Shown: one piece after another, positions 12,772-49,829 of the stretch
Layout of the letters: every line of letters begins with the position of its first letter
How positions within the stretch are numbered: position 1 is the first letter of the stretch
DNA from: Natribacillus halophilus
GTDB taxonomy: Bacteria; Bacillota; Bacilli; Bacillales; Marinococcaceae
Direction of reading: 5' to 3'
Length of the DNA: 64,000 nt
Assembly: GCF_900100185.1 (NCBI RefSeq)
Contig: NZ_FNEN01000003.1
Span: 141,012 to 205,011 of the forward strand
Translations under genes and position numbers: made by a program
The notes under the pieces: generated by a model
What the model was told of the DNA's origin: nothing
The model's input: only the letters and a program-made list of their open reading frames with translations
Databases searched by the model: none

Positions 12772-13503
12772 TTAAACTGCCAGCCCTCCGTCGACAGGCA
12801 TTACAACACCGTTCACGTAAGAAGCTTCGTCCGAGAATAAAAATGATACAACTGAAGCGATTTCGTCGGCAGTTGCTGTACGCTGCATTGGGCTGGAGTT
12901 TTCTGAATCGTCAACCATTCCGTCTGTCATCGTAGTTTTTACGGCACCGGGGCAAACGGCGTTTACTCGAATACCTTGTGAACCATACTCATTGGCGGCT
13001 GTTAACGTCATACCGGCTAAAGCATGTTTTGTTGCCCCGTAAACACCAAGATACGGCTCGGCCCGTATGCCAGCATGGGAAGAACCATTAACGATCGAAC
13101 CGGATTGCTGCTGGGCCATCATCTCAAGAACGTATTTCAAACCGAGAAAAGCCCCTTTTAAATTGACAGCCATAACCTGATCAAATTCTGCTTCTTCTAC
13201 TCCATGAAGCAAGGAAGGTTTCTGCAAGATTCCGGCATTGTTGTGAAAAAAGTCAATTCTACCAAACTTCTCCTTTGCCTCCTTGACATATCGCTTGACA
13301 TCTTCCGCCTTCGATACGTCTGCCAAAAACCCGTGAGCTTCAATGCCCTTCCGTTTAACCTCATCAACGGTTTTATCCAGTGTTTTTTCATTAAAATCGA
13401 GCAATAAGAGTTTTACACCTTGAGAGCCCAATTTCTCTGCTGTTGCTCATCCAATTCCGCTTCCTGCACCTGTAATAATTGTTGTTTTTCCTTCGACATT
13501 CAT
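12772..13503 (-). pseudogene. Short-chain dehydrogenase with in-frame stop
   Basis: Reading from ATG at 13503, the frame gives a normal SDR start (ITGAGSGIG), then TGA at 13449-13447, then continues in the same frame for about 220 residues to a normal end (VMPVDGG). The lost codon sits directly after GxxxGxG, where CGA (Arg) would be usual, so one C-to-T change explains it. The catalytic Tyr-Lys (YGATKHA) and NNAG are intact. Restart at the internal ATG (13431) would lack the cofactor site. It would have oxidised an alcohol to the ketone used by the adjacent monooxygenase. A sequencing error is possible. Confidence 0.85.
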
Positions 13504-13540
13504 TTCTCTGGCCACTCTTTCTGATTTAATCTATATAACT

Positions 13541-24727: not shown

Positions 24728-25405
24728 TTATTCTTTTACTTCTATAATAAATGGATAGGCGTTAACGTCATCGCCAAACTTAAATTCGGCCCAGATTTTG
24801 TACATGCCAGGCTTAGAGAAATGCGCATTAAACGTTGTTGTGTTATCTGTTTCTGGATGGACATGAATGTAGTGTTCAACATCCTCATCAACAATCACAA
24901 CATGACCCAAGGCGCCTAGATACGGATCCGGTTTTTCGCCATGCGTATCAAAGACTAAAGGAACGTCTTCCCCAACCGTAGCATCCACCGCATTTAACGT
25001 GACGGTCTTCCCATTACGCTCTTTCGTCCAATGATCTTTTCCGTCAAGGTTTGCTTTAGCTTTACTTGTTTCGTCGGTGCCCACTTGTAAAGTATTGGGC
25101 ATAATTTGGTATGTCTTATTTTCCGGTGCAATATCAACGAATGCTTGATAAGTGCCGTCACTTAACGCTTGATTGACCGAATAATATCCCGGTTGCTCCT
25201 TCTCCGGATGTAAATGATAGTACGCCTCTAAATCATTGGAAACCATGATAAAATGCATCTTTTTATCATGTTGGATAGCTAATTCAGGCGGGCTCCCAGT
25301 ATCATCTTCCAATTCAATAAAAACTTTCCCATCATTATATGTCACATTAGTTTTAACCTGTGATTCGACATTATGGTCATGATGATGGTGTTTGCTATGA
25401 TCCAT
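24728..25405 (-). CDS. His-rich protein with two YtkA-like repeats
   Basis: A 225-residue protein with no signal peptide. It begins with a His cluster (residues 3-11) and then has two similar domains of about 90 residues. Each has the pattern H(F/V)-x2-V-x2-D-x-E-x-Y-x-H-x-H-P-E: YYHLHPE with His64 and His66, and YIHVHPE with His181 and His183. Each ends in a GxYxxxxxF strand. The fold is probably immunoglobulin/cupredoxin-like, as in YtkA/FixH-type domains. A CsoR box upstream and the paired His motifs suggest copper binding; this is inference. Function is unknown. Confidence 0.7.
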   Translation of the reverse strand: MDHSKHHHHDHNVESQVKTNVTYNDGKVFIELEDDTGSPPELAIQHDKKMHFIMVSNDLEAYYHLHPEKEQPGYYSVNQALSDGTYQAFVDIAPENKTYQIMPNTLQVGTDETSKAKANLDGKDHWTKERNGKTVTLNAVDATVGEDVPLVFDTHGEKPDPYLGALGHVVIVDEDVEHYIHVHPETDNTTTFNAHFSKPGMYKIWAEFKFGDDVNAYPFIIEVKE

Positions 25406-25815: not shown

Positions 25816-26400
25816 TTATTCAATATTTGATAGTTCATCTTCTGTGACCCATTTATGATTTTCCACTTCTTCGCCACCGGTCGTCGGTGTGTAATCAATC
25901 ATATAGACGGTTGTTTCTTCAGCTTCATCAATCTCAGCCGTGGCTCCTTCCATCCCGTCCATATGATCAGCATCTAATGTGACTTCTGTTCCCGGTTCAA
26001 GTGTTTCCTCCCCGACGTCTTCGATTTCTTCATGAACCACCCATTCATGATTTTCTACTCTTTCTCCGCCATTGGTTGGGGTATAAGAAACAATGTAGGC
26101 AGTCGTATTATAAGCTCCAACGATGGTAGCTTCGGCACCTTCCATTTCTTCCATATGGCCGCCCTCCACCGTTGCTTGGCTTCCCTCTTCAAAAGATGGA
26201 TTCTCTTCTTCCTCTAAATCATCCGGAACCTCACCGGAGCTGGAATGATCCATGTCTTCGTGCATGTCTTCGTCCATACTGTTATCCTCGCCGGAATCCA
26301 TATCTTGATCTGGCATTGAATCTTCCTCGCCAGTGCCACATGCAGCTAATGCAAATGCTGTTACCAGGGAAACGGACCCTATCATGATTTTTTTCTTCAC
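25816..26400 (-). CDS. ydhK: YdhK-like lipoprotein (two DUF1541 repeats)
   Basis: A 194-residue lipoprotein starting at GTG 26400, behind AAAGGACG; the signal peptide ends in ALAACG. A highly acidic, Met- and His-containing linker follows, then two DUF1541 repeats, each with HMxxMEGA, a YTPTxGGExVENHxWV core and an acidic end. The HM/EM/DHM motifs could bind copper. YdhK-type proteins often accompany copper genes, but their function is not established. A CsoR box sits in the promoter, 56 nt upstream. Confidence 0.85.
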   Translation of the reverse strand: MKKKIMIGSVSLVTAFALAACGTGEEDSMPDQDMDSGEDNSMDEDMHEDMDHSSSGEVPDDLEEEENPSFEEGSQATVEGGHMEEMEGAEATIVGAYNTTAYIVSYTPTNGGERVENHEWVVHEEIEDVGEETLEPGTEVTLDADHMDGMEGATAEIDEAEETTVYMIDYTPTTGGEEVENHKWVTEDELSNIE

Positions 26401-26455
26401 TTTAATACGTCCTTTCAAAATGGCATCCTTATTTTAATTCTTTTTTAATTTACCA

Positions 26456-26527: not shown

Positions 26528-27474
26528 TTATTGTATTGTAATTCCGTTTGGATTTTCGCCAACATTTACAGTTGTAATCACTTCACTTTTTTCTATATCA
26601 ATAACACTCACGGTATTGTCATACATATTGGTTACATATACGAACTTGTTATCTTTGCTTGTAACAATGCCGTGAGCACCATTACCCACTTCGATGGTTG
26701 CAACAACCTCTTTTGTTTCTAAATCGACTTTCGTAACACTGTTTGACGGATTTTCGGAAGTCCCTTGATTTGCAACCCAAGCATATTTATCGTCAGATTG
26801 AATATAAACTTGGACAGGACCTTTACCAACTTTAACCTTCTCGACTTTTTCAGAAACAACGTCCACAATAGCTAGGGAATTTTCACTATTTAATGTCGCA
26901 ACAAGTGTTTCTCCATCTTTGGTGATTCCTGTTGTAACCGGAACATTTCCCGACTATAATTTTCTTCGTTTCTTTCATTTGCCCTAAATCAATGACGCTA
27001 ACAGTATTTTCATTCATATTTGCGATATAAGCGAACTTACTGTCTGCTGAAATTCTTAAACCGTGCGGACCATTACCTGTTGAAATAGTATGAACCACTT
27101 CATAGGTTTTCATATCAATAACAGGCACATTATTATTTCCGGTATTTGTCACAAGAGCATATTGATTGTTTTCTGTAAATACAATGTGAGCAGGATGTGC
27201 TCCACTATCTACTTCTTTGATTAGTTCGTTTGTTTTGGCATCATAAAAGAGCTGCCTTCTCATTTTTTGCATCGTGTCCATCATGGGCTTCATGTCCTCC
27301 ATGTCCTCCTGAAGGAACAATCGTAATACCCATCATTTTATTATCAGGCGACATTTGTACGTTATGCACTGTACCATTGATTTTTATTGAGTCGAAAACT
27401 TTATTTGTTGAAACATCAATTTTTGAAATACCACCTTCATTTGCCGTGAAATAAAAAAGTGTGTTATTTGTCAT
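26528..27474 (-). pseudogene. YVTN-type beta-propeller protein, twice frameshifted
   Basis: Three consecutive frames together encode one propeller protein of about 315 residues with YVTN repeats (YVTNMYDNTVSVID, YIANMNENTVSVID, LVTNTGNNNVPVID). The first break is near 27248, where a TTTT run would need one more T; the second is near 26952, where an AAA run would need one less A. The first segment includes a His-rich loop (GGHGGHEAHDGHD). It starts at 27474 and its promoter has a CsoR box. Intact, it would be a metal- or redox-associated propeller. Both breaks are in homopolymers, so errors in the sequence are a serious alternative. Confidence 0.82.
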
Positions 27475-28648: not shown

Positions 28649-29779
28649 CTATACATGCACTGCACAGCGGTTTGGTCCAATTTCCATTTCGCGTTGTTTT
28701 TCTTCTGCCGGATTCACTTTACCCATATTGGTTTGGCGTATATTATCATGTTCATTTGGCTGCGGTGGCAGATTCTCGGTGACCATCTTCCGAAATGCTT
28801 GTTCATCCTCCACCTGCAAGGCTTTATTGCGCTGATATAAATCACCAAGTCGTACATTAACACTGGCATCTTCGCTCAGTTCCTCTATAGACGAATAGTG
28901 GCCAGGCAATACAATCAAATCATCAGACAGGTCTTTATAACGGCTGTACAAGGTTTCGCGCAAATCGCCAACCCAGTCTTCCGCCTTACCGGCAAGATCG
29001 GGACGGCCGATGGATTTAACGAACAGAATATCACCGGTCAGAAGGTACCGATCATCAATAATCAGGGACGTGCTCCCTATGGTATGTCCCGGTGAATAAA
29101 TTGGTTGCACTTTTACAGTTGTATTGCCGACTGTTAGATCACTGCCTTCTTCTAATGATGCATAGTCAAATGTGACCTCGCGAGCGTCTTTAGGTGGAAG
29201 GTGATAAGTTCCGCCTGTATGGTTAGCAAGCTGAAGGCTACCGGAAACATGGTCGGCATGGAGATGGGTATCGATCGTATGCTTGATGGTGACACCTTTT
29301 TCTTCAGCAAACCGTTCATAAATGTCCGTCATCCGGTTGGCGTCGATAACCGCTGCTTCATTTTCGGAAATAACCATATACGACAGACAACCCTTGCCAA
29401 GACGAACAAATTGATAAAGACTTCCGGCGTCATTCAAGTCAGCTATTTTGACCGGCTCCAGGTGCTCACTCCAGGCTTTCATACCGCCTTCCAAGTCTTT
29501 GACATTCGTAAAACCGTTTTCTTCCATCATCTTAGCTACCTTCTTGGATGATCGGCCTTTTGCACAAACAACGATAATTTCCTGATCTTTATTCAGTTTC
29601 TTAGTGACAGGATCGATGCCGTCCAGCAGATTGACGTAAGGTTCATTGATGACATAGACGCTGTCTCCTTCAATCTTCCAGTCATCAAACTCATCTGTAT
29701 TCCGAACGTCCAAAATAAGCGTTTCTTCACGATTAACCACACGTCTTGCAAGTTCCTTCGTCGTTATACTTTGTGACAT
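28649..29779 (-). CDS. Rhodanese-metallo-beta-lactamase fusion (persulfide dioxygenase-like)
   Basis: A 376-residue two-domain protein. Residues 1-105 form a rhodanese with active-site Cys72 (VVCAKGRSS). Residues 115-330 form an ETHE1-like metallo-beta-lactamase with THLHADH (171-177) and later SPGHTIGS and PGHYS ligands, matching persulfide dioxygenases. The C-terminus ends NRCAVHV. The expected role is oxidising glutathione- or bacillithiol-persulfide to sulfite and transferring sulfane sulfur, as in sulfide detoxification. Its promoter has a CsoR/CstR-like box. A 27-nt piece of its 3' end recurs at 45288-45314. Confidence 0.88.
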
Positions 29780-32295: not shown

Positions 32296-32913
32296 CTAAA
32301 ATGGCCATAAATTTTGCGAATCGTCACTTTGCGCCGCTTCAATATCTGCAGCAATAGGCACCGTATCCGTCTCCATTCCATCATATTGGCGAATGATCTG
32401 ACCATCCGGATCAATCAAATAATGCTGTGTGGAATGAATAATATCGTTTGCCTCCGGATCTTCTTCGACAACAGTTGCAAATGATTGTTGCGCAAGCGCT
32501 TCTATGTCTTCTTGTTCATATCCGGTGAGAAAATGCCAACTGTCAAAATCAGCGTTATAATTCTCCCCATACGATCGTAATTGTTCAGGATCATCAAAGT
32601 CCGGATCAACAGTAAACGACACGATGGGGATCTCCAGTCCTTGTTCTTGAAGATCCACTTGTAAACTCGCCATATTTGGCGTCATCATATTGCACACCGT
32701 CGGACAACGGGTAAATACCATATTGGCGACCCAGTAATCCCCTGCCAAGTCTTCATTTGTGACGGTTTCCTCATCTTGATTCGTAAAGAAAAAGTCATTC
32801 ACGTATAACTCTGAATCCGACAAATCGGTGTCATCGGTCCCTGTTCCGTATAACCAACTGCAACCACCAGTCATCAACATCAGCGTTCCAAAAATAAGGG
32901 TTATTTTTTTCAT
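32296..32913 (-). CDS. SCO-family copper/thiol protein
   Basis: A 205-residue lipoprotein (lipobox ending at Cys18, GGCSW). The SCO copper ligands are Cys70 and Cys74 (RCPTVC) and His160 (IIHSTQHYLID). SCO proteins load the CuA centre of cytochrome c oxidase or reduce its cysteines. It is the last gene of a long minus-strand operon, 23 nt behind the broken TlpA-like gene, and shares with it a thioredoxin fold. This places the operon in oxidase or copper-site assembly outside the membrane. Confidence 0.88.
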   Translation of the reverse strand: MKKITLIFGTLMLMTGGCSWLYGTGTDDTDLSDSELYVNDFFFTNQDEETVTNEDLAGDYWVANMVFTRCPTVCNMMTPNMASLQVDLQEQGLEIPIVSFTVDPDFDDPEQLRSYGENYNADFDSWHFLTGYEQEDIEALAQQSFATVVEEDPEANDIIHSTQHYLIDPDGQIIRQYDGMETDTVPIAADIEAAQSDDSQNLWPF

Positions 32914-32936
32914 TTATGATTTTCCCCCATCTGCCC

Positions 32937-33526
32937 CTATTCCATCTCTTCCAACTGTTGCAGCATTTGCTCGTGGTTCATGGCTCCAAGTGCCATGAAT
33001 TGTATTCTTCCATTGGAATCAATCATATATGATGTCGGGTATGCCATAATCTCATAGGCATCCATGACGTCGGCTTCTTCATCCATAGGAATCGGGAAGG
33101 TCAAATCAAATTCGTCTACAAAGTCTAAACCTCCTCCAGATTATTTTCCGTCTCTGTCATATTGACGGCCAATATGACGACATCCTCTTCATCATAAAGT
33201 TTCTGCATATCAGGCATTTCTGCCCGGCACGGTGGGCACCAGGTTGCCCAGAAGTTGAGCATTACCCGTTCTCCCCGATAGTCGGATAAACGCATTGTTT
33301 CACCATCCAATGTTTTTAGCTCGAAATCAGGAGCAATTTCACCTTCCTCCAATCCAAATTCATCTGATTCATCTGATTCTTCCGCTCCCTCCGTAGGTGG
33401 AGATTGAACACTATCATCTAAAACGGTATTATTTTCTTCTGCTGAATCATCCGATGACATTACAAAATCAAAGATGGCCCAGCCAAGCGCTCCGATCACA
33501 ATGACAATGAGAATTCCTTTTTTCAT
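32937..33526 (-). pseudogene. TlpA/ResA-like thioredoxin, frameshifted
   Basis: The first frame (33526-33125) gives a signal anchor, an acidic linker and WATWCPPC (Cys97, Cys100), then stops after NNLEEV. The other frame continues with VDEFDLTFPIPMDEE and the cis-Pro AYPTSYMID to a stop at 32939-32937. One missing T in a T-run near 33130 would join them (EEV-LDF). The whole would be about 195 residues, a normal TlpA-family length. It lies between ccdA and the SCO gene, so loss would interrupt the electron path from CcdA. Confidence 0.85.
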
Positions 33527-33544
33527 TGATAAGCCCTCCTCTAG

Positions 33545-34303
33545 TTACCCTAGTTGTGACATCCACGTATCATCGATTAAATCAAGCAAAAATGTGGAAA
33601 TAGCCGGCATCAAACCTAAGAATAGAACCAGACCCATAATAACCATAAGTGCTCCGCCAACCTTCATAATCACCCCGCTGTGCCGCACAATCCATTTCGT
33701 TGAACCGAGAAAAAACGTTAAAATAATGAAAGGCAGCGCAAAACCAATGACATAAAACATCGTGTAGAACACACCCTGACCCGGATTGGATGCCGCAAGG
33801 AGCAAAATGGATCCAAAAATCGGCCCGATACAAGGCGTCCATCCGGCAGCAAAGCCTAATCCGACGAAGAAAGTGCCCATAAACCCGACCGGCTTTTTTG
33901 TATAGTGTAAACGTTTTTCCTTCATCAGTGTCGGTATCGTAATCCATCCAGCAACAAACAACCCCATGAATATGATAAATATCCCGACAATTCGCTGGAT
34001 TAACAGGCCGGTATCACCGATTAATAAATTTTGCACCCATTGTCCCAAAAAGGAAGCCCCAGCCCCCAGGCCGATAAATACCAGCGACACCCCGAGCAAA
34101 AAGAACATTGAATGGCTTAATAGCTGACCGCGGATTTTTGTATCATGATCCCCCTGTAATTCCTTCACACTAATGCCGGTAATGTAGGACATGTAGGCAG
34201 GAAAGATCGGCAGTACACAGGGAGACAGGAAGGACAACGCCCCTGCACCGAGCGCTAACATCATTCCGACTAACAACATTGTTTCTGCTTCAATGGCACC
34301 CAT
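33545..34303 (-). CDS. ccdA: CcdA-type electron-transfer membrane protein (copy 1)
   Basis: A 252-residue, six-helix DsbD/CcdA protein. The two conserved cysteines are in SFLSPCVLPIFPAY and GWTPCIGPI. It passes electrons from cytosolic thioredoxin across the membrane to TlpA/ResA-like proteins. The ATG at 34303 overlaps the upstream stop (TAATG); the frame is open slightly further, but this overlap is typical of translational coupling. The next gene downstream is the frameshifted TlpA. Confidence 0.9.
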   Translation of the reverse strand: MGAIEAETMLLVGMMLALGAGALSFLSPCVLPIFPAYMSYITGISVKELQGDHDTKIRGQLLSHSMFFLLGVSLVFIGLGAGASFLGQWVQNLLIGDTGLLIQRIVGIFIIFMGLFVAGWITIPTLMKEKRLHYTKKPVGFMGTFFVGLGFAAGWTPCIGPIFGSILLLAASNPGQGVFYTMFYVIGFALPFIILTFFLGSTKWIVRHSGVIMKVGGALMVIMGLVLFLGLMPAISTFLLDLIDDTWMSQLG

Positions 34304-34938
34304 TATGCATCCCACTTTCTTTTGCTAAAAAACATGATTGATAAACAACCAATGAAAAACAAACCGATAAACCACGGGTCAATCATATAACCAAATACGG
34401 TAACAAATGGTTGAATAAAAGTTAATACCAGCATCCCTGCTGTCCAGCCGGCTAATATCGTTATGAGCGTCGTTATATGCTCACGCATAGAAAAATATAT
34501 GATGAGTAATATGGCCAATAAAACCAAATACCCTAGAGAGTATGAATTGTCCAAGACCATTTGCATAAATTCATAGAAAAAGGAAGCGACTAGAAATACA
34601 TGCGCAAACACTTCAGCAAATGCGAAGATATCCAAATGATGACGTATCGTTTTATAAACAACGATGATGGCAGTGAACAGCGTTGCCAGATAGAATGCGC
34701 CCGAATCCCCGGGATAAGCCAGCACAGCCATGGGATCCTGAATGAATAATGATAGATTCAACAAGATTTTCCCAACCCAGACAAAGATAACGAAATTAAT
34801 CAGTTGTGACGTCAACGCTTCTATTTGTTTTTTCTTTTCTGCTTTCGGCCAATCACTTAATAAATTAAAGGAAATCAACCCGACAGCAACACTTGCAATA
34901 ATGATACCGATAGATACGATGGCGCTGGTAATCACCAT
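34303..34938 (-). CDS. Six-helix membrane protein of unknown function
   Basis: A 211-residue protein with about six transmembrane helices and short loops. No Cys-containing redox motif or catalytic pattern is evident; the C-terminus ends in a basic KRKWDA tail. I do not recognise the family. It is translationally coupled to the first ccdA (TAATG) and lies 38 nt behind the second, so it probably belongs to the same thiol-redox or oxidase-assembly module. Confidence 0.8.
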   Translation of the reverse strand: MVITSAIVSIGIIIASVAVGLISFNLLSDWPKAEKKKQIEALTSQLINFVIFVWVGKILLNLSLFIQDPMAVLAYPGDSGAFYLATLFTAIIVVYKTIRHHLDIFAFAEVFAHVFLVASFFYEFMQMVLDNSYSLGYLVLLAILLIIYFSMREHITTLITILAGWTAGMLVLTFIQPFVTVFGYMIDPWFIGLFFIGCLSIMFFSKRKWDA

Positions 34939-34976
34939 GAAGCGCTTCCTCCATTTACTTTCATCTTAAGCAACGT

Positions 34977-35696
34977 TTATATCATCCAGGAAGGAACAAA
35001 CTGCCCTAAATACATCGCGATCGTCTCGAAATAACCTGTGAAAAGAAGAATACCCAGGATAATCATAATGACGCCACTCCCTTTTTGAATGGCAGGTAAA
35101 AAACGATTGATGGAACTAAGCTTCTGGAAAGATTGCGCATAAAGAAGCGAAATCCCTATGAATGGTAACCCCAGTCCCATTGAATAAGCAAAAAGCATGG
35201 TTGATCCGGTGAGCATCGTTCCGGATGCGCCCGCAAGGGTGAGAATGGAACCGAGCGTGATACCAATACAAGGGGTCCATCCAGCTGCAAATACAAGCCC
35301 AAACAGAACCGAACCGGAAAAGCTCGTAGCTTTTTTCGGGGTTTTTGCTACTCGTTTTTCAGTAAACAAGGCGCGAATGGAAATGAGCCCCGTCATTTGT
35401 AATCCAAATACAATGATGAGGATGCCGCCCACTTGCATAATGGCGCTACTGTACTGATTAAACCATGATCCCAGCAAGGTTGAGGATAATCCCAGCAGCA
35501 GGAAAATAATCGTAAAGCCAAGAATAAAGCCGATGCTTCGGGAAAAAATTAACCGGCGATCCGCATTGATAGCCCCCGATGATACATTGGCGCCGGTCAA
35601 TTGAGCCAAATAAGCCGGAAGCAATGGAAAAATACAAGGGGAAAAGAAAGATATAAGACCTGCCATAAAAGCGATGCCGAGCGATACATCATCCAT
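34977..35696 (-). CDS. CcdA-type electron-transfer membrane protein (copy 2)
   Basis: A 239-residue CcdA/DsbD family protein with six helices and the paired cysteine motifs SFFSPCIFPLLPAYLAQ and GWTPCIGITLG. It is clearly a paralogue of the protein at 33545-34303. Two CcdA proteins in one operon suggest separate partners, for example the TlpA-like and the SCO protein. It follows the 71-residue membrane protein gene by 41 nt. Confidence 0.9.
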   Translation of the reverse strand: MDDVSLGIAFMAGLISFFSPCIFPLLPAYLAQLTGANVSSGAINADRRLIFSRSIGFILGFTIIFLLLGLSSTLLGSWFNQYSSAIMQVGGILIIVFGLQMTGLISIRALFTEKRVAKTPKKATSFSGSVLFGLVFAAGWTPCIGITLGSILTLAGASGTMLTGSTMLFAYSMGLGLPFIGISLLYAQSFQKLSSINRFLPAIQKGSGVIMIILGILLFTGYFETIAMYLGQFVPSWMI

Positions 35697-35737
35697 ATAA
35701 CGAGACCCTCCTCTTATATTGAGACATGATCATCCAC

Positions 35738-35953
35738 TTACGCTCTTCTTGAGCGACGTTTGCTAATGAACAAAAAGAGGACGTAGATGACCACACCTGC
35801 TAATAATGGTTTTCCCATCCAAAGACTAATGTTGAAAAGAAGATGGAAATAAGATGGAACATTGTACGCGGCAGATATAATCCCGGACATACACAAACAA
35901 TGCAATCCGATGGCGATGACAGCCAAAGCAACCCACCAATCCCTTCCAGTCAT
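35738..35953 (-). CDS. Small two-helix membrane protein
   Basis: A 71-residue protein with two predicted helices (about residues 7-27 and 47-63), a HCLCMSG segment in the first, and a basic end (SKRRSRRA). It is not a family I recognise. The His-Cys-x-Cys-Met cluster could bind Cu(I), which is inference. The start overlaps the kinase stop by 4 nt (ATGA), which supports it as a real gene of the operon. Confidence 0.7.
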   Translation of the reverse strand: MTGRDWWVALAVIAIGLHCLCMSGIISAAYNVPSYFHLLFNISLWMGKPLLAGVVIYVLFLFISKRRSRRA

Positions 35954-37302
35954 TCATCGCCCTCCTTTGCTTCCGGAAACTGCAGCACAAATGTCGTCCC
36001 TTTTCCGGGAACACTTTCTGCTTGAATGCTTCCATATTGAAGTTCCGTTAATTGTTTCACTATGGCCAGTCCTAAGCCTGTCCCTCCGAAATCACGTGCT
36101 CTTGACTTTTCACCACGATAAAAACGCTCAAAAATGTAGGGAAGATCTTCAGCGGCGATGCCTCTTCCCGTATCCGAAATTTTTACTTCGATGTTCCCTT
36201 CTTTCAAGGATACCTCGATCCAAACATGCCCATTTTCCGTATAACTCACCGCGTTTTGAAGCAAATTGGTGAAGATCTGTTCCAGACGGAAACTGTCAGC
36301 TACAATGGGAGGAAGCTCTTCTTCTATATCGACAGTCAAGGATGTGTTCTTTTTCTTTGCTTCGGTCGCCACTTTTGTGTTTGTATGCCGGATGATGTCT
36401 CTGATATAAACCAACTCAAGGTTTAAGGGAAAACGCCCTTCTTCCATTCGGGATAATTCAAATAAATCATGGATCATTCGATTCACACGGTGCACTTCTT
36501 CATGAATAATATCGATAAACTGTTGTTTTTCGGTCTCATCCTGATAAAGCCTTTTCTTTAGTGCATCACCATAGCCTTGGATATAAGACAGTGGCGTCCG
36601 TAATTCGTGGGACACGTTCGAAAAAAAAGCCTGCCTATTGTTCCGATATCTTTTGAGTTCGCGCGCCAACTCATTCATGGAATGGGAAAGCAAGCCCACC
36701 TCATCTCTCGTTTTCACAGGTACTTCCACGTCTAGCTCCCCCCTCGCCATTTGATTTGCCGCTCCTTCCATCATCTGAAGAGGATTTGAAAATTGTCTGG
36801 AGATAATAAACGTAAAACCAAAAGCAAGAAGGAAGGCGCCAATCCCTGATAGAAACAATGCATGCTGTACTTGAATGGCTGATTGATCCATGAGGTCTGA
36901 AGGCGAAAAAACAAAGACCTCTCCAATATCGTCATCCTCCACTTGTTCTCCGGCATAAATATATTCTTGCTGATCATTTGGGTCTGTAAATGTTCCAATA
37001 TCATGTTCAGGGGGATGAAAACCGCTGATTCCACAATCTTCGACAACGTTTCCACTCGGGTCAGTGATCATTATCTTTCGAGGTGTCTCCTGATCCATCG
37101 ATTGGATAAGTGGTTCTATGTCAGGATTAGCGACCTCAGCAAGAATGGTTGCATAATGAGAAGCCATTTCCTCTGTATCTTCGTACAAATGGGCTTCATT
37201 ATAGTTGGTAAAAATCTGGACCATCACATAACCTAACGGAAGCAGGACAATGAGAAACAAAATCATGATCGATCCGCCAAGCTTATAAAAAATCCTATTC
37301 AT
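35950..37302 (-). CDS. Sensor histidine kinase
   Basis: A 450-residue membrane kinase. Helix 1 (about 10-30) and helix 2 (about 148-168) flank an extracytoplasmic sensor of about 115 residues with one Cys. A HAMP domain (170-222), HisKA with His232 (NVSHELRTPLSYIQGYG) and HATPase_c (DTGRGI, GTGLGLAIV) follow. It overlaps the downstream small gene and lies 3 nt behind its response regulator. It heads the CcdA/TlpA/SCO operon, so it may sense extracytoplasmic copper or thiol stress. Confidence 0.9.
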   Translation of the reverse strand: MNRIFYKLGGSIMILFLIVLLPLGYVMVQIFTNYNEAHLYEDTEEMASHYATILAEVANPDIEPLIQSMDQETPRKIMITDPSGNVVEDCGISGFHPPEHDIGTFTDPNDQQEYIYAGEQVEDDDIGEVFVFSPSDLMDQSAIQVQHALFLSGIGAFLLAFGFTFIISRQFSNPLQMMEGAANQMARGELDVEVPVKTRDEVGLLSHSMNELARELKRYRNNRQAFFSNVSHELRTPLSYIQGYGDALKKRLYQDETEKQQFIDIIHEEVHRVNRMIHDLFELSRMEEGRFPLNLELVYIRDIIRHTNTKVATEAKKKNTSLTVDIEEELPPIVADSFRLEQIFTNLLQNAVSYTENGHVWIEVSLKEGNIEVKISDTGRGIAAEDLPYIFERFYRGEKSRARDFGGTGLGLAIVKQLTELQYGSIQAESVPGKGTTFVLQFPEAKEGDE

Positions 37303-37305
37303 CGG

Positions 37306-38007
37306 CTATGTCCCTTCCGTTGTATTAAATGTGTATCCCACTCCCCACACGGTCTTTATTGGGTTAAATGGTAGACCGGCCTTTTTCAACTTGGTTCGGA
37401 TATTTTTGATATGGGTATCAATCGTTCGAGGATCTTGCCATTCACTCTCGATTGACCAAATCTGCTCGATGACATTCTCCCTTGTATACACCCGTCCGGG
37501 ATGGTTAGCCATTAAATATAAGATCTCGAATTCTTTTGCAGTTACTTCGACGGATTGGCCCGCCACTTTTACGTCGTACCGGTCCGGTTGAATAAATAAT
37601 TCACCGGCTGTGATTTCTACCGGCTCCTCGTTTAAAGGGCTGGATTTTCGCCTGAGCAGTGCTTTTACACGTGCGACGAGTTCCTCCGGTGCGAACGGTT
37701 TGACGAGATAATCATCCGCCCCAAGATCCAGCCCTTTAACCCGATCTTCCACTTCTGTTTTCGCTGTAAGTATCAAAATCCCTATAGGGGACCCTCCAAT
37801 ACGCAGGTGCCTGCAAACCTCCCAGCCATCGGTTCGCGGCATCATAATATCCAAAATGATGGCATCGTAGCTTTGATTGGTGGCCATTTGTATCGCTTCT
37901 ATTCCGGAACTTGCTTCATCAAGTTCATAGCCTTCCTTTGTCAGATAAAGTCCGATCAACTGTCGCATTTTTCGCTCATCATCTACAATGAGAATACGTT
38001 CCGCCAC
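37306..38007 (-). CDS. OmpR-family response regulator
   Basis: A 233-residue regulator: receiver domain with phosphoacceptor Asp53 (IILDIMMPRTDGW) and Lys in LVKPF, then a winged-helix DNA-binding domain (EFEILYLMANHPGRVYTRE). The GTG at 38007 is chosen, with GGGAGG at good spacing; the open frame begins at 38022. It is the first gene of a minus-strand operon running to the SCO gene at 32296. It presumably controls that operon. Confidence 0.9.
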   Translation of the reverse strand: MAERILIVDDERKMRQLIGLYLTKEGYELDEASSGIEAIQMATNQSYDAIILDIMMPRTDGWEVCRHLRIGGSPIGILILTAKTEVEDRVKGLDLGADDYLVKPFAPEELVARVKALLRRKSSPLNEEPVEITAGELFIQPDRYDVKVAGQSVEVTAKEFEILYLMANHPGRVYTRENVIEQIWSIESEWQDPRTIDTHIKNIRTKLKKAGLPFNPIKTVWGVGYTFNTTEGT

Positions 38008-38097
38008 TTTGGCTCCTCCCATGATTAATCTGTTTTCAGTTTAACGAGTAAATATGTGATTTATGTGAAGACTGGGCGCTTAAAATTTGATCATTCT

Positions 38098-38168: not shown

Positions 38169-38621
38169 CTACGTCGATTCAATGGATACATTACCTTCCG
38201 CTTTTATTTGAACATCTGCTTTTCTCAACATATTTCCGACTTCGCATTTGTTGTCTGCGATCTCAATGGTTTTATGAGCTGATTGGATTTGGGCTTCTGT
38301 TGCATCGGCAGATACAGTAATACGGGTATCATGTATGATTTTAAAGCCTTCTTCCTTTGACTTGATCGATTCTGTATCCACGTCTATAGAAGAAACTGGT
38401 ATCTTTCTTCCTTCAAGCATACCTGTAAGTGTCATAATGAAGCAGGCTGTCGCAGAAGTTAAAAGTATTTCTTTTGGATCTGCGCCTTCTCCACTTCCAC
38501 CTAAAGATTCGGGTATCGCGATGTTTGTTTCCAGGTCATTGACTTTAATGCTTCCACTTCCTTTTGCGCCTCCACTCCAAACAGTCTTTAGGTTTGTTTT
38601 TGTATCAGCCATATTTATCAA
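38169..38621 (-). CDS. OsmC-family peroxiredoxin-like protein
   Basis: A 150-residue OsmC/Ohr-family protein. It contains the second-half Cys motif NKCEVGNML and an upstream TACFIMTLTG segment holding the other Cys. Members reduce organic hydroperoxides or act in sulfur-stress responses. The start is uncertain: a TTG at 38621 or the ATG three codons later; AAAGGAG serves either. It is 9 nt behind the ArsR-rhodanese gene, so both belong with TrxB in one thiol-stress unit. Confidence 0.85.
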   Translation of the reverse strand: MINMADTKTNLKTVWSGGAKGSGSIKVNDLETNIAIPESLGGSGEGADPKEILLTSATACFIMTLTGMLEGRKIPVSSIDVDTESIKSKEEGFKIIHDTRITVSADATEAQIQSAHKTIEIADNKCEVGNMLRKADVQIKAEGNVSIEST

Positions 38622-41493: not shown

Positions 41494-43638
41494 TTAACGC
41501 CCGGCGTTTTCTTCTTTTACCCGTAACAACCGTAGGCCGTTCGCGGTCACAAGCAGTGTCGCCCCAACATCCGCAAGGATCGCGATCCAAAGGGTTAACC
41601 ATCCCGGTATCACCAATAACAGCGCCAATAATTTAATGCCTAGTGAGAAACTAATGTTTTGTTTAATAATGCGTAGCGCTCGTCGACTCAGTTTCATCGT
41701 ATAGGGCAATTTTTGTAAATCGTCTCCCATCAAGGCAACGTCGGCGGTTTCCAATGCGGTATCAGCGCCTGCTACTCCCATGGCGATGCCTACATTGGAT
41801 GAAGCTAAGGCAGGGGCATCGTTTACCCCGTCTCCAACCATAGCTACTTTTCGATGCTTTTCTCTAAACGCTTGAACATAAGATAGTTTATCTTCCGGTA
41901 AAAGATTGGCTTGAACATCGGTCACACCCACTTGTTGGCCAATGGCAGACGCCGTATCTTGATGGTCACCCGTAAGCATAATCGTCTGGTCGATGCCGAT
42001 GTCATGGAGTTTGGAGATGACTTCCTGGCTCGTGTCTCGAACTTCATCAGCAACGGCAATCAGAGCTAAAATGGACTTATTCGTTCCAACAAACATTCCC
42101 GTCTTCCCTTGCTTTTGGAGATCTTCAAGGGAATGACGAATGTCTGGATCAATGGCATATCCCAGCACATCTTCCCATAAACTTAGATTCCCAACGTGGT
42201 ACGTCGTCCCATCGATCGTGCCTTTGATCCCTTTTCCCGTGATCGAAGTAAAATCTTGAACTTTTTTATGTTGGTAAGAAATATTCGCTTGCTTGGCTTG
42301 ATCGACGATGGCCGAAGCTAAAGGATGCTGAGATCGCGACTCTAACGCAGTCACTTTGGCTAATAGCTCATCTTCGTCTCCCGGGTGAAAAAGAGAAAAA
42401 TCCGTCACCACCGGAACCCCTTTGGTTAAGGTCCCTGTTTTATCAAAAGCGATCGCTTTCAACGATCCGGCTTCTTCCAAATAAGCGCCGCCTTTAATTA
42501 AAACACCATTCTTAGCCGCATTGCCAATAGCTGTAACAATGGAAACCGGGGTTGAAATTACAAGTGCACACGGACAAGCTACAACCAATACAGCAAGCCC
42601 TTGATAAATCCATGCTTCCCAAGACGCTCCCATCATCAATGGCGGTAAAACAGCTACCAGCATAGCCAAAACCATAACGGCGGGTGTGTAATATTTCGCA
42701 AATCGATCCACAAACGCTTGGGCCGGAGCACGCTCCGCTTGTGCTTCTTCCACGAGATGGATCACTTTTGAAATGGTCGTGTCTTCGACATGCTTGGTAA
42801 CACGAACTTCAAGGAACCCTTCTTCATTCAATGTTCCCGCAAAAACCTCATCATCGAGATTTTTTTCAACAGGAATGGACTCGCCGGTAACAGCTGCCTG
42901 ATTTATGGAGGAATGACCGGCTACAACAACACCATCCATGGCCGCTTTTTGCCCCGGTTTGACGATCATGATGTCTCCAATCGCAATGTCGTCGACATGC
43001 ACGGCCATCTCTTGGCCGTGTCGTTTAATAAGCGCTTCTTTGGGGGCTATATCCATGAGCGAACGAATGGATTGTCTCGCCCGATCCATGGAAAATCCCT
43101 CGAGTTCTTCACTAATGGCAAAAAGAATGACCACAATGGCTCCTTCCACCCATTCCCCGATTATGGCCGCCCCGATGACAGCGACCGTCATGAGCGTCTT
43201 CATATCAAATCGCAGGCGCATTAAATTCATAAGGCCGGCCTTAAATAGCGTATACCCCCCAACGACCATTGAAGTGGCATAAGCAAGCCAAGTGAGAAGG
43301 TTCTCTTGGCTATTGATAATTTGAGAAGCCACTCCAAATCCAAAAAAGAGGATCGCCAATATTATGGTTTGATATTTTTGCAAAAAGGATGGCTGATGAG
43401 TTGGTTCCGCTTCATCAGATGCATGTTCTGAACGGACTTTCAAATTTTCAAAGGAACCGGCCTGCTCCAATTCTTCCTTTGATGTGGATCCGTAAACGGT
43501 AATCTTTGAAGCCGCAAAATTCACCTGCGCATTGTCAACGCCATCTAATCGTTGCACATTCTTTTCAAACGTATCGGCACAATTCGCACACGAAAAGCCT
43601 TGGACGCGATAGACATATTTCTCAGCCTGATCAGCCAC
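41494..43638 (-). CDS. cadA: Zinc/cadmium-exporting P-type ATPase
   Basis: A 714-residue P1B-type ATPase. The N-terminal HMA domain has SCANC (Cys17, Cys20); the membrane CPC motif is in ACPCALVIS, the phosphorylated Asp in DKTGTL and the hinge in [10 protein letters not shown]. The last helices contain SLGIKLLAL and an Asp-Val-Gly, marking the zinc/cadmium/lead subgroup rather than copper CopA. The GTG at 43638 has GGGAGGAG at ideal spacing and overlaps the cadC stop by 8 nt; the open frame starts further back within cadC. It exports toxic divalent metals under CadC control. Confidence 0.92.
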
Positions 43639-44008
43639 GATGGGTCTCCTCCCGGCCATGCGCCATAGCCGTTTCAATAATTTCTGTAACATGGTGATCA
43701 TCTAAGGAATAAAACACCAATTTTCCTTCTTTCCGACTTTTCGCAATGCGTAAGTTTCTAAGATGACGGAGATGATGAGAAGCCGTTGCCGTCGTTGTCC
43801 CGATAATATGGGCCACGTCACAGACACAGAGTTCAGTCTCCTGAGTTAAGGCATAAGCAATTTTTAACCGGGTCTCATCAGATAACGCTTTAAAAATATC
43901 CCCTGTGAATGTGAAGCTTTCCGATTCGATAAGGGAAGATAATCGATGAACCTTTTCCTCGTCATAACAAAACACTTCACACTGATCTTGTTTTTCTTTC
44001 GTTTTCAT
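43631..44008 (-). CDS. cadC: CadC metal-responsive repressor
   Basis: A 125-residue ArsR/SmtB repressor of the CadC type. The metal site cysteines are present: Cys-x3-Cys near the N-terminus (QCEVFC) and ELCVCDVA in the alpha-3 helix. The recognition helix reads [13 protein letters not shown]. Cadmium, lead or zinc binding releases DNA. The start ATG at 44008 has AAGGTG at 6 nt. A perfect palindrome operator lies 15 nt upstream. It is coupled to cadA by an 8-nt overlap. Confidence 0.93.
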
Positions 44009-45799: not shown

Positions 45800-45894
45800 A
45801 ATTATTGCTCATGCAAAATTGTTTGTCCAAAGGAAATTTATTGCTTTGCTGTCGTGCTCGCTTAACTAAACATAGAAGAAATGAGGAATGGAAA

Positions 45895-46839
45895 TTGAAG
45901 AAACCAGTTGTTATTTTATCTCTCTTTTCAAGTTTAGGGTTGTTGGTGTCTGCCTGTAGCGATGAAGAATCCGGTGCGGAAGAATCGGCCGCGGATGGGG
46001 ATGGCCCCATCCAAGTGACATCGACGACGAGCCAAATCAGTGATATCGTGGAAAATGTCGGCGGGGAACACGTAGACAACACCGGGTTAATGGGCCCCGG
46101 CATTGACCCGCACGATTATGAAGCTTCCCAGGGAGATGTGGAAACGCTCGACGAAGCGGATATTATTTTTTGGAATGGTTTGAACCTGGAAGAACAAATG
46201 ACTGAGATGTTGGGGCAAATGGGGAACGAAAAACCGGTGTATACACTAGGGGAAGAGGTTCCTGACGAAGACATTTTGGAGGACGAAGAAGAAGCCGGGA
46301 CACCTGATCCACACATTTGGTTTGACCCTGAACTATGGTCTTATGCGGTTGAAGGCGTAGCAGACGGTTTAGCGGAGCTTGACCCTGAAAATGAGGACGA
46401 TTACCGAGCAAATGCTGACACGTACATCGACGAAATCCAGGAACTGCAAGCATGGTCCGAAGCGGAAATCGAAAATATTGATGAAGAGAGCCGTGTACTC
46501 GTGACCGCCCATGACGCCTTCCAATACTTCGGTGACGCCGTAGGCATGGATGTGATGGGGCTGCAAGGCATTAGTACAGAGGCCGAGGTTGGACTAAGTG
46601 ATGTGCAAGGCGTTATTGATGAAATGATCGAACGGGATATCAACGCGATTTTTGCCGAAACGAGCGTGTCCGACAGTGCCGTGGATGCCGTCATCGAAGG
46701 CGCGCAAGAACAAGGGCACGAGGTTGAAAACGGCGGTGCCCTTTATTCCGATGCGATGGGAGAACCCGACACCGAAGAAGGCACGTATGTCGGAATGTAC
46801 GAAGCGAATGTCAATCAAATCGTGGAAGCCCTGGATTAA
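45895..46839 (+). CDS. mntA: Manganese ABC transporter substrate-binding lipoprotein
   Basis: A 314-residue cluster-9 metal-binding lipoprotein (lipobox LLVSAC, Cys21). Candidate metal ligands include His73 (DPHDYE), a second His in DPHIWFDP and the late EXS segment (FAETSVSD). It lacks the long His-rich loop of the zinc protein at 5427. The TTG at 45895 follows GAGGA at good spacing and gives a proper signal peptide; the upstream codons of the open frame do not. First gene of mntABCD, with an MntR-like box. Confidence 0.9.
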   Translation: MKKPVVILSLFSSLGLLVSACSDEESGAEESAADGDGPIQVTSTTSQISDIVENVGGEHVDNTGLMGPGIDPHDYEASQGDVETLDEADIIFWNGLNLEEQMTEMLGQMGNEKPVYTLGEEVPDEDILEDEEEAGTPDPHIWFDPELWSYAVEGVADGLAELDPENEDDYRANADTYIDEIQELQAWSEAEIENIDEESRVLVTAHDAFQYFGDAVGMDVMGLQGISTEAEVGLSDVQGVIDEMIERDINAIFAETSVSDSAVDAVIEGAQEQGHEVENGGALYSDAMGEPDTEEGTYVGMYEANVNQIVEALD

Positions 46840-46918
46840 AGTAAAGTGAAGTGGGGGGAAGCATTCATAATTCGCTTTCTCCCAGTATTTCGTTTAATCA
46901 CGAAAAGGAGTATCCATT

Positions 46919-47674
46919 ATGAATCCGATAACTGCAAAGAACGTTACGGTGGCCTATCAGCGCAAACCGGTCCTCCAAAGTATTGATTTTGAGGCCCCGG
47001 AAGGCAAACTTATTGGCATCATCGGCCCCAACGGGGCGGGGAAATCAACATTGTTGAAATCGATTCTCGACCTTGTGCCCAAAGCCTCCGGGGAAGTCAA
47101 CATTTATGGAAAACCATACCGTAAGCAACGGCAAAAGGTCGGTTATGTTCCGCAAAGAGGGTCGGTCGACTGGGATTTTCCGACGAATGCCCTCGACGTT
47201 GTGCTCATGGGACGATATGGACAGATTGGTATGTTTCGCAGAGTAAAAAAGAAGGACCGCAGAGAAGCCATGTCCTGTCTTGAAAAAGTCGGTATGGATC
47301 AATACGCAAACCGGCAAATCAGCCAGTTGTCGGGCGGCCAGCAACAGCGTGTGTTTCTCGCTCGCGCACTCGCCCAAAACGCGCAGGTCTATTTTATGGA
47401 TGAACCATTCGTTGGCGTGGATGCCGCTACGGAAAGAGCGATTATCCAGTTATTAAGCGAGCTGAAAGACCAGGGCAAAACCGTTCTCGTCGTCCATCAT
47501 GATTTGCATACCGTCCGGGACTATTTTGACTGGACCATGCTTCTGAATGTCCGTAAAATCGCTTTCGGGCCGACGACGGAAACATTCAAAAAAGACCTTT
47601 TGCAAAAAACATACGGCGGCAAATTAACACTTCTCGACCAGGAAGAAGAACAGGAAGTGACTCCACTTGCTTGA
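46919..47674 (+). CDS. mntB: Manganese ABC transporter ATP-binding protein
   Basis: A 251-residue ATPase with Walker A GPNGAGKST, signature LSGGQQQRV and Walker B YFMDEPFVGVD. It is the usual ATPase of cluster-9 metal importers. AAAAGGAG precedes the ATG. It overlaps mntC by 8 nt, showing translational coupling. Confidence 0.93.
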   Translation: MNPITAKNVTVAYQRKPVLQSIDFEAPEGKLIGIIGPNGAGKSTLLKSILDLVPKASGEVNIYGKPYRKQRQKVGYVPQRGSVDWDFPTNALDVVLMGRYGQIGMFRRVKKKDRREAMSCLEKVGMDQYANRQISQLSGGQQQRVFLARALAQNAQVYFMDEPFVGVDAATERAIIQLLSELKDQGKTVLVVHHDLHTVRDYFDWTMLLNVRKIAFGPTTETFKKDLLQKTYGGKLTLLDQEEEQEVTPLA

Positions 47675-48947
47675 AATACTCAGTAACCCGAATGTCCAAT
47701 GGGTGCTATTCGGGACGACCGCACTCGGCATCGCCGGCGGGGTGCTCGGAAGTTTTGCGCTGTTGCGCCGGCAAAGCCTGATCAGTGACGCCATGAGCCA
47801 CGCTGCCCTCCCCGGCATTTGCATCGCCTTTCTCATCGTCGGCGAAAAAATGATGGGCGCCTTGCTGGTAGGGGCAGGATTGACGGCTTACCTGGGAACG
47901 TATTGCATTCAAGCGATCGCCTATTATACGCGCCTAAAAACCGATGCCGCCATCGGTTTGGTTTTATCTGTTTTTTTTGGGATCGGCATCGTTCTCCTCA
48001 CCTTTATTAACAATCTTCCCATCGGGGGGCAAGCCGGTTTAAATGAATTTATTTTTGGGCAGGCAGCCGCGATGACAAGCTCGGATGTCCGTGTTATTTC
48101 TTCTGTCGCCTTGGTTTTGGTCATTATTACTATTTTACTTTTTAAAGAACTGAAATTGCTCATTTTTGATCGCGAGTTCGCACGAGGTATTGGTTTACCT
48201 ACGACGGTTCTCAATGGTCTCTTAATGACGATGATCGTCGCAGCTGTCGTCATCGGTCTTCAAGCGGTCGGTGTCGTCTTGATGGTCGCGATGCTGATTG
48301 CGCCGGCGATTACCGCTCGCTATTGGACGGATCGGCTGGACGTCATGGTCATTTTATCCGGTGTTTTCGGTGCCATTTCCGGTATATTGGGCACGGTGAC
48401 CTCGGCGCCGATTTCCGGTATGCCTACAGGTCCGATTATTATCGTTGCCGCTTGTATTGTTTTCTTTGTTTCCCTGATCGTTGCGCCAAAAAAAGGACTT
48501 GTTGTCAAAGCTTACCGTTTGCAGCAATTGCGCAAGCAAACGGCGAGAGAGCAAATTTTGCAAAGCCTGTATGAACTCGTGGAAGAACATTACCAAGCGT
48601 CCGGGTCGCTCACAGATTTCGCACGGGAAGAAATACGTGCATTACGCCCGTTATCCGAGCGAAGGTTTCGGAAAACATTGAACGGTCTGGAACGATCCGG
48701 GAAGATTGATGCAAAGGAAGAAGGGTATGCATTAACGACATCCGGGAGAGAAACAGCGCATAACGTTACACTCAACAATCGTTACATGCAGATGTATGCC
48801 ATGCACGAAGCTCGCTTCGCCAATCTGCAAATGGAAAAACGGAACTGGGATTTCCTATCCCTCCCTGAAGAAGAGCGGGAACGTCTACACGCGTTATTGC
48901 AGGAGCATCAACTGGAACCAAGATTAATGCAGGGAGGTCGGCTTTAA
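47667..48947 (+). CDS. mntC: Manganese ABC transporter permease with C-terminal winged-helix extension
   Basis: A 426-residue protein. Residues 1-280 are an ABC-3 permease with about eight helices. The remaining 140 residues form a soluble extension (TAREQILQSLYELVEEHY, LTTSGRETAH) resembling a DtxR/MntR-like winged helix, as in the long MntC permease of B. subtilis. The TTG start lies behind AGGAAGTGA inside mntB. The role of the extension is not known; a metal-sensing gate is possible. Confidence 0.9.
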   Translation: MLEILSNPNVQWVLFGTTALGIAGGVLGSFALLRRQSLISDAMSHAALPGICIAFLIVGEKMMGALLVGAGLTAYLGTYCIQAIAYYTRLKTDAAIGLVLSVFFGIGIVLLTFINNLPIGGQAGLNEFIFGQAAAMTSSDVRVISSVALVLVIITILLFKELKLLIFDREFARGIGLPTTVLNGLLMTMIVAAVVIGLQAVGVVLMVAMLIAPAITARYWTDRLDVMVILSGVFGAISGILGTVTSAPISGMPTGPIIIVAACIVFFVSLIVAPKKGLVVKAYRLQQLRKQTAREQILQSLYELVEEHYQASGSLTDFAREEIRALRPLSERRFRKTLNGLERSGKIDAKEEGYALTTSGRETAHNVTLNNRYMQMYAMHEARFANLQMEKRNWDFLSLPEEERERLHALLQEHQLEPRLMQGGRL

Positions 48948-49829
48948 ATGAGTTATACATTTTGGATTCTTTTAACCGCCTCTCTTGTGGGTGTTTCCTG
49001 CGGGATCATCGGCGTCCTGCTTATTTTGCGGAAATTGGCGATGCTGTCCGATGCCATTAGCCATACGGTGTTACTGGGCATTATTTCTGCTTTCCTCATC
49101 ACCCAATCGCTGGATGGGTGGACCATGTTTATCGGGGCAGCGATTGTCGGCTTGCTCACGACCGTGTTTGTGCAAATGCTCCATTCTGCAGGCGTACAAT
49201 CCGATGCTGCGATCGGCATCGTATTTACATTTTTGTTTGCCATCGGGGTTATCCTCGTGTCCATGTATGCGGGCAATGTCCACATTGACGTGGAGCACAG
49301 CATCATGGGGGACATTGCGTTTATTCCCTGGGAGACGGTCAACTGGTTCGGGATTGAAGGGATTCCGCAGGCAGTTTGGATGCTTGGCATTGTCCTCGTC
49401 ATCGATGTGATCCTGCTCTTTCTCTTTTATAAAGAATTCAAGGTTAGCACCTTTGACCCGGAACTGGCGGCTGCGATTGGGCTTCCCGTCGGTGTATTGC
49501 ATTATCTCCTCATGGGAATGACATCCCTCACGGCGGTTGCCTCTTTCGACGCGGTTGGCGCCATTCTCGTCGTGGCCATGTTGATCGCGCCGGGCGCCAC
49601 CGCGTATTTGCTGACGGAACGCTTAAGTATGATGTTTGTCCTTAGTGCTGTTTTCGGGGTGCTCGCCGCATTTTCTGGGTATTACATCGCGGCCTGGCTG
49701 GATGCTTCCATTGCCGGCATGATGGCGACGATGGCAGGCGTCATCTTCTTGCTTGCGTTTGTTTTCTCCCCGACCCATGGATTAATTGCGAAACGATTGC
49801 TGCAAAATCGGATCAAATATGAAGTATAA
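48948..49829 (+). CDS. mntD: Manganese ABC transporter permease
   Basis: A 293-residue ABC-3 permease with about eight helices and no extension. It begins directly after the mntC stop with AGGGAGGTCGG just upstream. The two permeases form the heterodimeric pore with MntB. The last gene of the operon, it is followed by a hairpin terminator. Confidence 0.93.
   Translation: MSYTFWILLTASLVGVSCGIIGVLLILRKLAMLSDAISHTVLLGIISAFLITQSLDGWTMFIGAAIVGLLTTVFVQMLHSAGVQSDAAIGIVFTFLFAIGVILVSMYAGNVHIDVEHSIMGDIAFIPWETVNWFGIEGIPQAVWMLGIVLVIDVILLFLFYKEFKVSTFDPELAAAIGLPVGVLHYLLMGMTSLTAVASFDAVGAILVVAMLIAPGATAYLLTERLSMMFVLSAVFGVLAAFSGYYIAAWLDASIAGMMATMAGVIFLLAFVFSPTHGLIAKRLLQNRIKYEV

Follow-up and report, generated by a model that had tools for sequence, protein, structure and literature searches.

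We analyzed an operon on the minus strand of a 64,000-nucleotide stretch of the Natribacillus halophilus genome (contig NZ_FNEN01000003.1; hereafter the window). The operon spans positions 32296 to 38007 and combines a two-component system with two CcdA proteins, a TlpA/ResA-like protein, a SCO lipoprotein, and two small membrane proteins of 211 and 71 amino acids (aa). The 211-aa protein, hereafter M211, belongs to a family that is homologous to the lipoprotein-processing enzyme Lgt, lacks the Lgt signature, and is linked to TlpA. We propose that M211 would function as an Lgt-derived partner of TlpA, and this proposal holds regardless of the fate of the operon. Among open-licence papers, searches on the M211 family or its linkage to TlpA listed a single paper (PMC3914529), which deals with thioredoxin lipoproteins of streptococci.

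Relationship of M211 to Lgt and TlpA

M211 is encoded at 34303-34938 on the minus strand. Its AlphaFold2 model (pLDDT 91.4) had only one convincing Foldseek match, E. coli Lgt (5azb), at a probability of 1.00 though with an E value of just 8.9e-3. Comparison with 5azb by VIA gave Z 14.0 over 203 aligned residues (root-mean-square deviation 3.8), with the next row at Z 6.6; for helical bundles, Z values under about 13 can be unspecific. A profile of 81 family members matched a profile of 15 Lgt sequences at 97.8% (E value 8.8e-13) over 235 columns, and controls with CcdA and with reversed Lgt reached 0.32% and 1.2%, respectively. An earlier and smaller profile comparison (28 members and 12 Lgt sequences) had given only 68.7%, and the wider set raised the score. 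For one divergent member, an NCBIfam Lgt model reached an E value of 8.2e-9, although its score of 35.5 bits is below the cut-off of 334, and PF01790 (LGT) matched three of seven divergent unfused members at 19.4-23.7 bits, with a cut-off of 24.9. The window protein itself had no Pfam match, and a search of PDB sequences with the family profile found nothing.

Two expressions that we take to mark Lgt, the signature GR.[GA]NF.N.E..G and the motif HG[GA], were used as tests. Both occurred in all 15 Lgt sequences; among the 81 family members, the signature was found in none and HG[GA] in one. The Lgt fold and profile similarity, with the signature lost, indicate that the family is homologous to Lgt but is not Lgt by membership. 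It shares with Lgt (5azb; PF01790) the predicted fold over the 203 residues and the profile similarity over the 235 columns, and it differs in lacking the signature, in scoring below the curated cut-offs in the members scanned, in being shorter, and in its link to TlpA. An active Lgt was rejected because the signature is absent from all 81 members. A CcdA-like thiol carrier is unlikely, since cysteine is entirely missing from 33 of the 81 members and the CcdA profile match was only 0.32%.

A single-sequence search found the M211 family in 28 of 121 relatives; with a profile, matches came from 139 of 398 genomes searched in the window's class and from 71 of 146 genera. Plasmid records were retrieved as well, one for the window protein and eight for a divergent member; eight of these nine are annotated, all as "hypothetical protein," and the named plasmid relatives are from Sporosarcina, Cytobacillus, Paenibacillus, and others. 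The initial annotation called both small proteins of the operon uncharacterised. This is accurate in that neither reaches a Pfam or NCBIfam cut-off, but M211 is remotely related to Lgt and coupled to TlpA, and for the 71-aa protein the coupling is to the histidine kinase (HK).

Gene neighborhoods of the family were surveyed in 91 loci (the window, L035-L064, and L155-L214), which are a choice, mostly one per genus in the class search, and not all matches. TlpA was encoded in the same run of genes in 82 of these and was fused to the M211-like protein in six more, giving 88 of 91, and the count was still 88 at a TlpA score of 100 bits. CcdA was present in the same run in 48 loci, and CcdA together with a response regulator (RR) and an HK in 32. 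The M211-CcdA-TlpA cassette is widespread and often occurs with another two-component system. The natural fusions were found in L045, L160, L167, L172, L175, and L186. Five of the six had a row in the profile search, and in four of these five the M211-like part stops at profile position 174-191 (of 220) and the TlpA part begins directly after it. This boundary would fit packing of the TlpA anchor where the last helix sits, although it is an observation and not a test.

A GWxxYD-type motif was found within the first 60 residues of TlpA in 28 of 32 close-family loci. A first set of 38 control TlpA proteins contained 13 with the motif, all of them in M211-centered loci (L127-L154), and the control was therefore redone. 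Among 42 TlpA-family proteins from loci without the M211 family, the motif occurred once, in the TlpA of the window itself (L218, a locus fetched for SCO), so that the corrected count is 0 of 41.

Several results speak against a general role of M211 as a TlpA receptor. Three of the 91 loci have no TlpA in the run (L166, L180, and L212); in L166 a transposase-like frame follows, and L212 is a 5.7-kb stretch that stops at a contig end. The anchor motif was present in only two of 53 divergent loci and in 16 of 29 family-centered loci from the class search, some of which are places already counted above and all of which (29/29) have a TlpA-family frame. The motif controls were largely ResA-like proteins and not a random set. 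Given the near absence of the motif in divergent members and its presence in just these 16 of the 29 further loci, sequence support for anchor recognition is limited to the close family. We tentatively suggest, at a little short of an even chance, that a widespread Lgt-derived family without the Lgt signature has been repurposed as a membrane receptor for TlpA, a third component of extracytoplasmic thiol reduction beside CcdA and TlpA, in which the anchor helix would occupy the signal-peptide groove of Lgt.

Organization of the operon

All genes of the operon are co-directional on the minus strand, in the order RR, HK, 71-aa protein, CcdA1, M211, CcdA2, TlpA (split), and SCO. The OmpR-family RR (37306-38007; PF00072 and PF00486 above cut-off) starts with GTG at 38007, with the Shine-Dalgarno sequence GGGAGGAG 5 bases upstream of it. 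The HK (35950-37302; 450 aa; PF00672, PF00512, and PF02518) has an extracytoplasmic sensor domain predicted to be of the PAS/Cache type, and a HAMP domain. The receiver and winged helix of the RR and the HAMP, HisKA, and HATPase domains of the HK place the pair in the OmpR/PhoB two-component family. The 71-aa membrane protein (35738-35953) has two hydrophobic segments by eye and a GLHCLxM-type motif. CcdA1 (34977-35696) and CcdA2 (33545-34303, scanned from a longer GTG start) are DsbD_TM proteins that matched PF02683 at 66.2 and 33.0 bits, respectively (cut-off 27.1), and SPC and TPC motifs, with the two motif cysteines, are present in both translations.

The TlpA/ResA-like protein is distributed over two frames. 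The first part (33125-33526; 133 residues) contains a signal anchor with a GWAIFD motif and WCPPC and ends at a frameshift stop, and the remaining C-terminal part, with the rest of the thioredoxin fold, lies in another frame at 32937-33104; no single open frame of the window holds the complete fold. The SCO1/SenC lipoprotein (32296-32913) matched PF02630 at 117.9 bits (cut-off 22.8) and has an intact CPTVC (CxxxC) motif.

Spacing between genes is short throughout: 3 nucleotides between RR and HK, a 4-nucleotide overlap (ATGA) between HK and the 71-aa gene, 41 nucleotides to CcdA1, 38 from there to M211, a 1-nucleotide overlap (TAATG) in which the ATG of CcdA2 overlaps the TAA of M211, 18 nucleotides from CcdA2 to TlpA, and 23 from TlpA to SCO. 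Identical gene order was found in two other genomes, G009 (L036) and G026 (L037), so that three of the 29 family genomes searched carry the eight-gene form. A chance cluster is ruled out by gaps of at most 41 nucleotides and by this identical order in three genomes. A pattern search of genome contigs for further related loci matched 33 stretches, none of which was confirmed. The genes, span, and junctions given in the initial annotation were all recovered, but its count of eight tied genes overlooked the frameshift in TlpA; the operon is real and comprises, as read from its sequence, seven intact genes and one broken gene. It looks like two joined modules, RR-HK-71aa and M211-CcdA2-TlpA.

The two-component module and its copper-gene setting

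Relatives of the 71-aa protein were found in 22 of 121 genomes, including a paralog in the window's own genome. Nineteen of the 30 listed places were fetched (L075-L093), and three more are covered by the window, L036, and L037. In each of the 23 copies seen, the 71-aa gene comes directly after the HK gene, with a 4-nucleotide overlap in 20. The cysteine of a G[LI][HSG]C[LF] motif is kept in 19 of 21 distinct sequences, and C[LF]xM in 20. Judged from this arrangement, the 71-aa protein is probably an accessory of the HK. Assignment to DUF6724 was rejected, as the match scored just 14.9 bits and the cut-off is 27.

Seventeen of the 19 fetched loci with the RR-HK-71aa trio encode a DUF1541 lipoprotein, a DUF326 Csp, a multicopper oxidase, or a P-type ATPase within about 8 kb; these counts refer to neighbor clusters of which representatives were domain-scanned. 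L084 and L085 have none of these clusters nearby. ResB and ResC are both present in ten of the 19 loci. The paralogous locus L075 (G000:C4:20000-36000) encodes the trio, a long frame, CcdA1, ResB-, ResC-, and ResA-like proteins, and another TlpA-like protein. The long frame (L075:7972-8940), which lies between the 71-aa gene and CcdA1, is of about 300 aa with a lipoprotein-like start; its 3' end is conserved across L075-L082 in an alignment, and a similar protein of L085 has BNR/sortilin-like repeats. CcdA1 and this kind of trio near ResB-, ResC-, and ResA-like genes (domains checked on the L076 copy) resemble System II cytochrome c maturation (CcdA-ResB-ResC-ResA), but the window operon differs in having neither ResB nor ResC.

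A tandem repeat that resembles an operator, TTCACATAAATCACATATTTAC, is located at 38048-38069 on the minus strand, 40 nucleotides before the RR GTG; its conservation upstream of RR extends to orthologous and paralogous loci. Allowing up to three mismatches, the pattern occurs at only three sites in the 3.3-Mb genome. Two of them, each without mismatches, precede the window RR and the paralogous RR, and the third, with three mismatches, precedes the Csp gene at the paralogous locus; the reversed-pattern control gave none. A weight matrix was built from ten RR-proximal sites, which match by construction. It found a further site 39-49 nucleotides before the Csp gene in all eight loci L075-L082; the score was only 12.7 bits in L079 and 15.4-22.4 bits in the other seven. 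In L083-L088 the RR-proximal sites were weaker (13.9-20.0 bits), and no RR-proximal matrix site was found in L089-L093. Background was 12 matches above 11 bits in 1.25 million positions of sixty other loci (L155-L214). In L079, a transposase frame (3574-4938) stands between a strong site and RR, and autoregulation may therefore be lost there. The shared operator-like site supports a copper-linked regulon and does not prove the signal.

The model of the HK sensor domain was of moderate confidence (pLDDT 73.9) and resembles PAS/Cache sensor domains, with WalK as the top Foldseek match. Two negative results count against copper sensing by this system. First, the invariant columns of the sensor domain contain no His, Cys, or Met, the sole invariant Met (M178) being in HAMP, and so nothing there marks a copper site. 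Second, RR (183 versus 279.2) and HK (157.7 versus 292.55) score below the heavy-metal NCBIfam cut-offs (TIGR01387/TIGR01386). The module thus resembles CopRS/CusRS in having an OmpR-type RR and a HAMP kinase among copper genes but differs in these scores, in the extra 71-aa protein, and in the lack of conserved metal ligands in the sensor. Since the sensor domain has no conserved His, Cys, or Met while the 71-aa protein keeps its Cys, we suggest that the small protein may take part in metal or thiol sensing. The link between the sensor and extracytoplasmic thiol or copper-site assembly, put forward in the initial annotation, gains support from context, that is, from the neighbors of the trio, the shared operator-like site, and the paralog near cytochrome c assembly genes.

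The window RR group is separate from the RRs of other M211 cassettes in an RR tree (11 rows, 99/99); as two branches of this tree are very long and its bootstrap was unsettled, it was used only for this separation. RR and HK directly follow TlpA in 17 of the 30 loci L035-L064, and the RR there is distinct from the window's in the tree. A quick tree of the M211 family, made without bootstrap, places the window members together with cassettes that have that other RR, among them L035 and L038-L042. We read these two groupings as an exchange of two-component systems.

The surroundings of the window operon resemble a metal island and encode a DUF1541 lipoprotein of the copper-locus type (25816-26418; PF07563, 171.3 bits), a His-rich protein without a Pfam match (24728-25405), CadA (41494-43701), and a metal-ABC-like set (45805-49829; unscanned). 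A YNCE-like beta-propeller gene in the same island is apparently split (26531-26866, 26886-27320, and 27241-27474, with both longer pieces matching PF21783), a second possible frameshift.

Proposed function, alternatives, and known systems

We consider it an even call whether the two modules of the operon together form an inducible system that reduces extracytoplasmic thiols and assembles copper sites. The signal, binding, electron route, and client that we infer are as follows. The Cache-type HK, aided by the 71-aa protein with its Cys/Met motif, would sense extracytoplasmic copper or the resulting thiol oxidation, and the phosphorylated RR would bind the tandem repeat upstream of RR and turn the operon on. 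CcdA1 and CcdA2 would move electrons across the membrane from thioredoxin in the cytoplasm, and CcdA2 would pass them to TlpA, which would reduce client thiols, such as the CxxxC of SCO, ahead of copper loading. M211, as an Lgt descendant without the signature residues, would no longer modify lipoproteins; it would bind the uncleaved signal anchor of TlpA and thereby keep TlpA beside CcdA. SCO is present in only three of the 91 surveyed loci, which makes the SCO link lineage-specific and counts against this reading.

Operons of a similar plan are known from streptococci. Excerpts of PMC7034828 describe two adjacent S. gordonii operons of a two-component system, CcdA, and a TlpA-like lipoprotein (Sgo_1181-1180-CcdA1-Sgo_1177-MsrAB and Sgo_1175-1174-CcdA2-SdbB), one of which ends in MsrAB, and state that peroxide tolerance in this species needs thioredoxin, CcdA, and Msr genes. 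In excerpts of PMC12650345, the S. gordonii and S. pneumoniae clusters are described with a flanking two-component system, and in those of PMC10543277 the S. pneumoniae ccdA1-etrx1-msrAB2 genes respond to oxidative stress. An excerpt of PMC9604106 contains nothing on an operon arrangement of the window type. The view that a dedicated sensor in such an operon is not a standard arrangement is not supported, because the streptococcal operons make the plan of the window operon a variation on one already known; CcdA, RR, and HK also occur together in the 32 M211 loci noted above.

Like the streptococcal CTM system (CcdA, TlpA, and MsrAB), the window has a two-component system, CcdA, and TlpA in one gene cluster, with TlpA frameshifted. 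It shares two CcdA proteins with S. gordonii, which, in the excerpted description, also has two TlpA-like proteins. The TlpA-like proteins of CTM are described there as lipoproteins, whereas the window TlpA has an uncleaved-looking anchor without a lipobox and an Lgt-fold partner. The window operon also differs in having SCO and the 71-aa protein instead of MsrAB.

An oxidative or thiol-stress operon of the CTM kind, with a sensor that answers peroxide, hypochlorite, or reactive sulfur and with copper incidental, is a rather unlikely alternative. Its precedent is CTM itself, which stands with a two-component system in the S. gordonii operons and is required there for H2O2 tolerance according to the excerpts. 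M211 cassettes often lie near genes for persulfide-dioxygenase-like, rhodanese, and DsrE proteins (a metallo-beta-lactamase [MBL] protein in eight of the 30 fetched loci), and the window encodes a combined rhodanese and MBL protein at 28649-29779 (by Pfam) that resembles a persulfide dioxygenase, as well as OsmC at 38169-38621. However, the window two-component system is not that of those cassettes in the RR tree; it belongs with the trio of the copper loci and shares their operator-like site, and no Msr domain was found among the operon proteins. L035 also encodes a 5'-nucleotidase-family protein (13008-14435; 475 aa), which is present in four of the 30 fetched cassette loci and for which a link to sulfur metabolism is possible.

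The operon could instead be a decaying, horizontally acquired remnant whose module no longer works in this lineage, which we regard as rather unlikely. The condition of its 3' end favors this and weighs against a working system: TlpA is frameshifted in this assembly, so that the window copy may be failing, and TlpA and/or SCO are damaged in both other carriers. G009 has TlpA as one continuous 197-aa frame, but its SCO frame spans only about 130 aa; in G026, the TlpA frameshift is at a different place and the SCO N-terminus is altered. The 3' end thus appears damaged in all three carriers, with sequencing error a possible cause in any of them. The restriction of the eight-gene form to three of 29 family genomes points the same way. 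On the other side, the RR, HK, 71-aa, both CcdA, and M211 genes are open in all three carriers, and the operator-like site and the overlaps are retained. Programmed frameshifting in TlpA is not favored, since the G026 frame breaks at another place and the G009 frame is unbroken.

It is improbable that M211, instead of passively holding TlpA, keeps an enzymatic or lipid-related activity of its own, for example as a modified acyl or lipid transferase whose target is the TlpA anchor: its predicted Lgt fold is complete and a conserved DPxAxLAYPS stretch aligns opposite the GGxAIHG loop of Lgt in the profile alignment, but the signature is gone from every member, HG[GA] remains in one, and of the TlpA anchors listed only those of L061 and L062 match the lipobox expression that we assumed, both inside the anchor helix.

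If M211 is a TlpA receptor, an unnamed family present in about a third of the class genomes searched would gain a role, and extracytoplasmic disulfide reduction would gain an extra part. A lipoprotein-processing enzyme would have been turned into a helix receptor. The proposed operon also opens to experiment the question of how, in Gram-positive bacteria, a sensor is linked to the assembly of copper sites and cytochromes.

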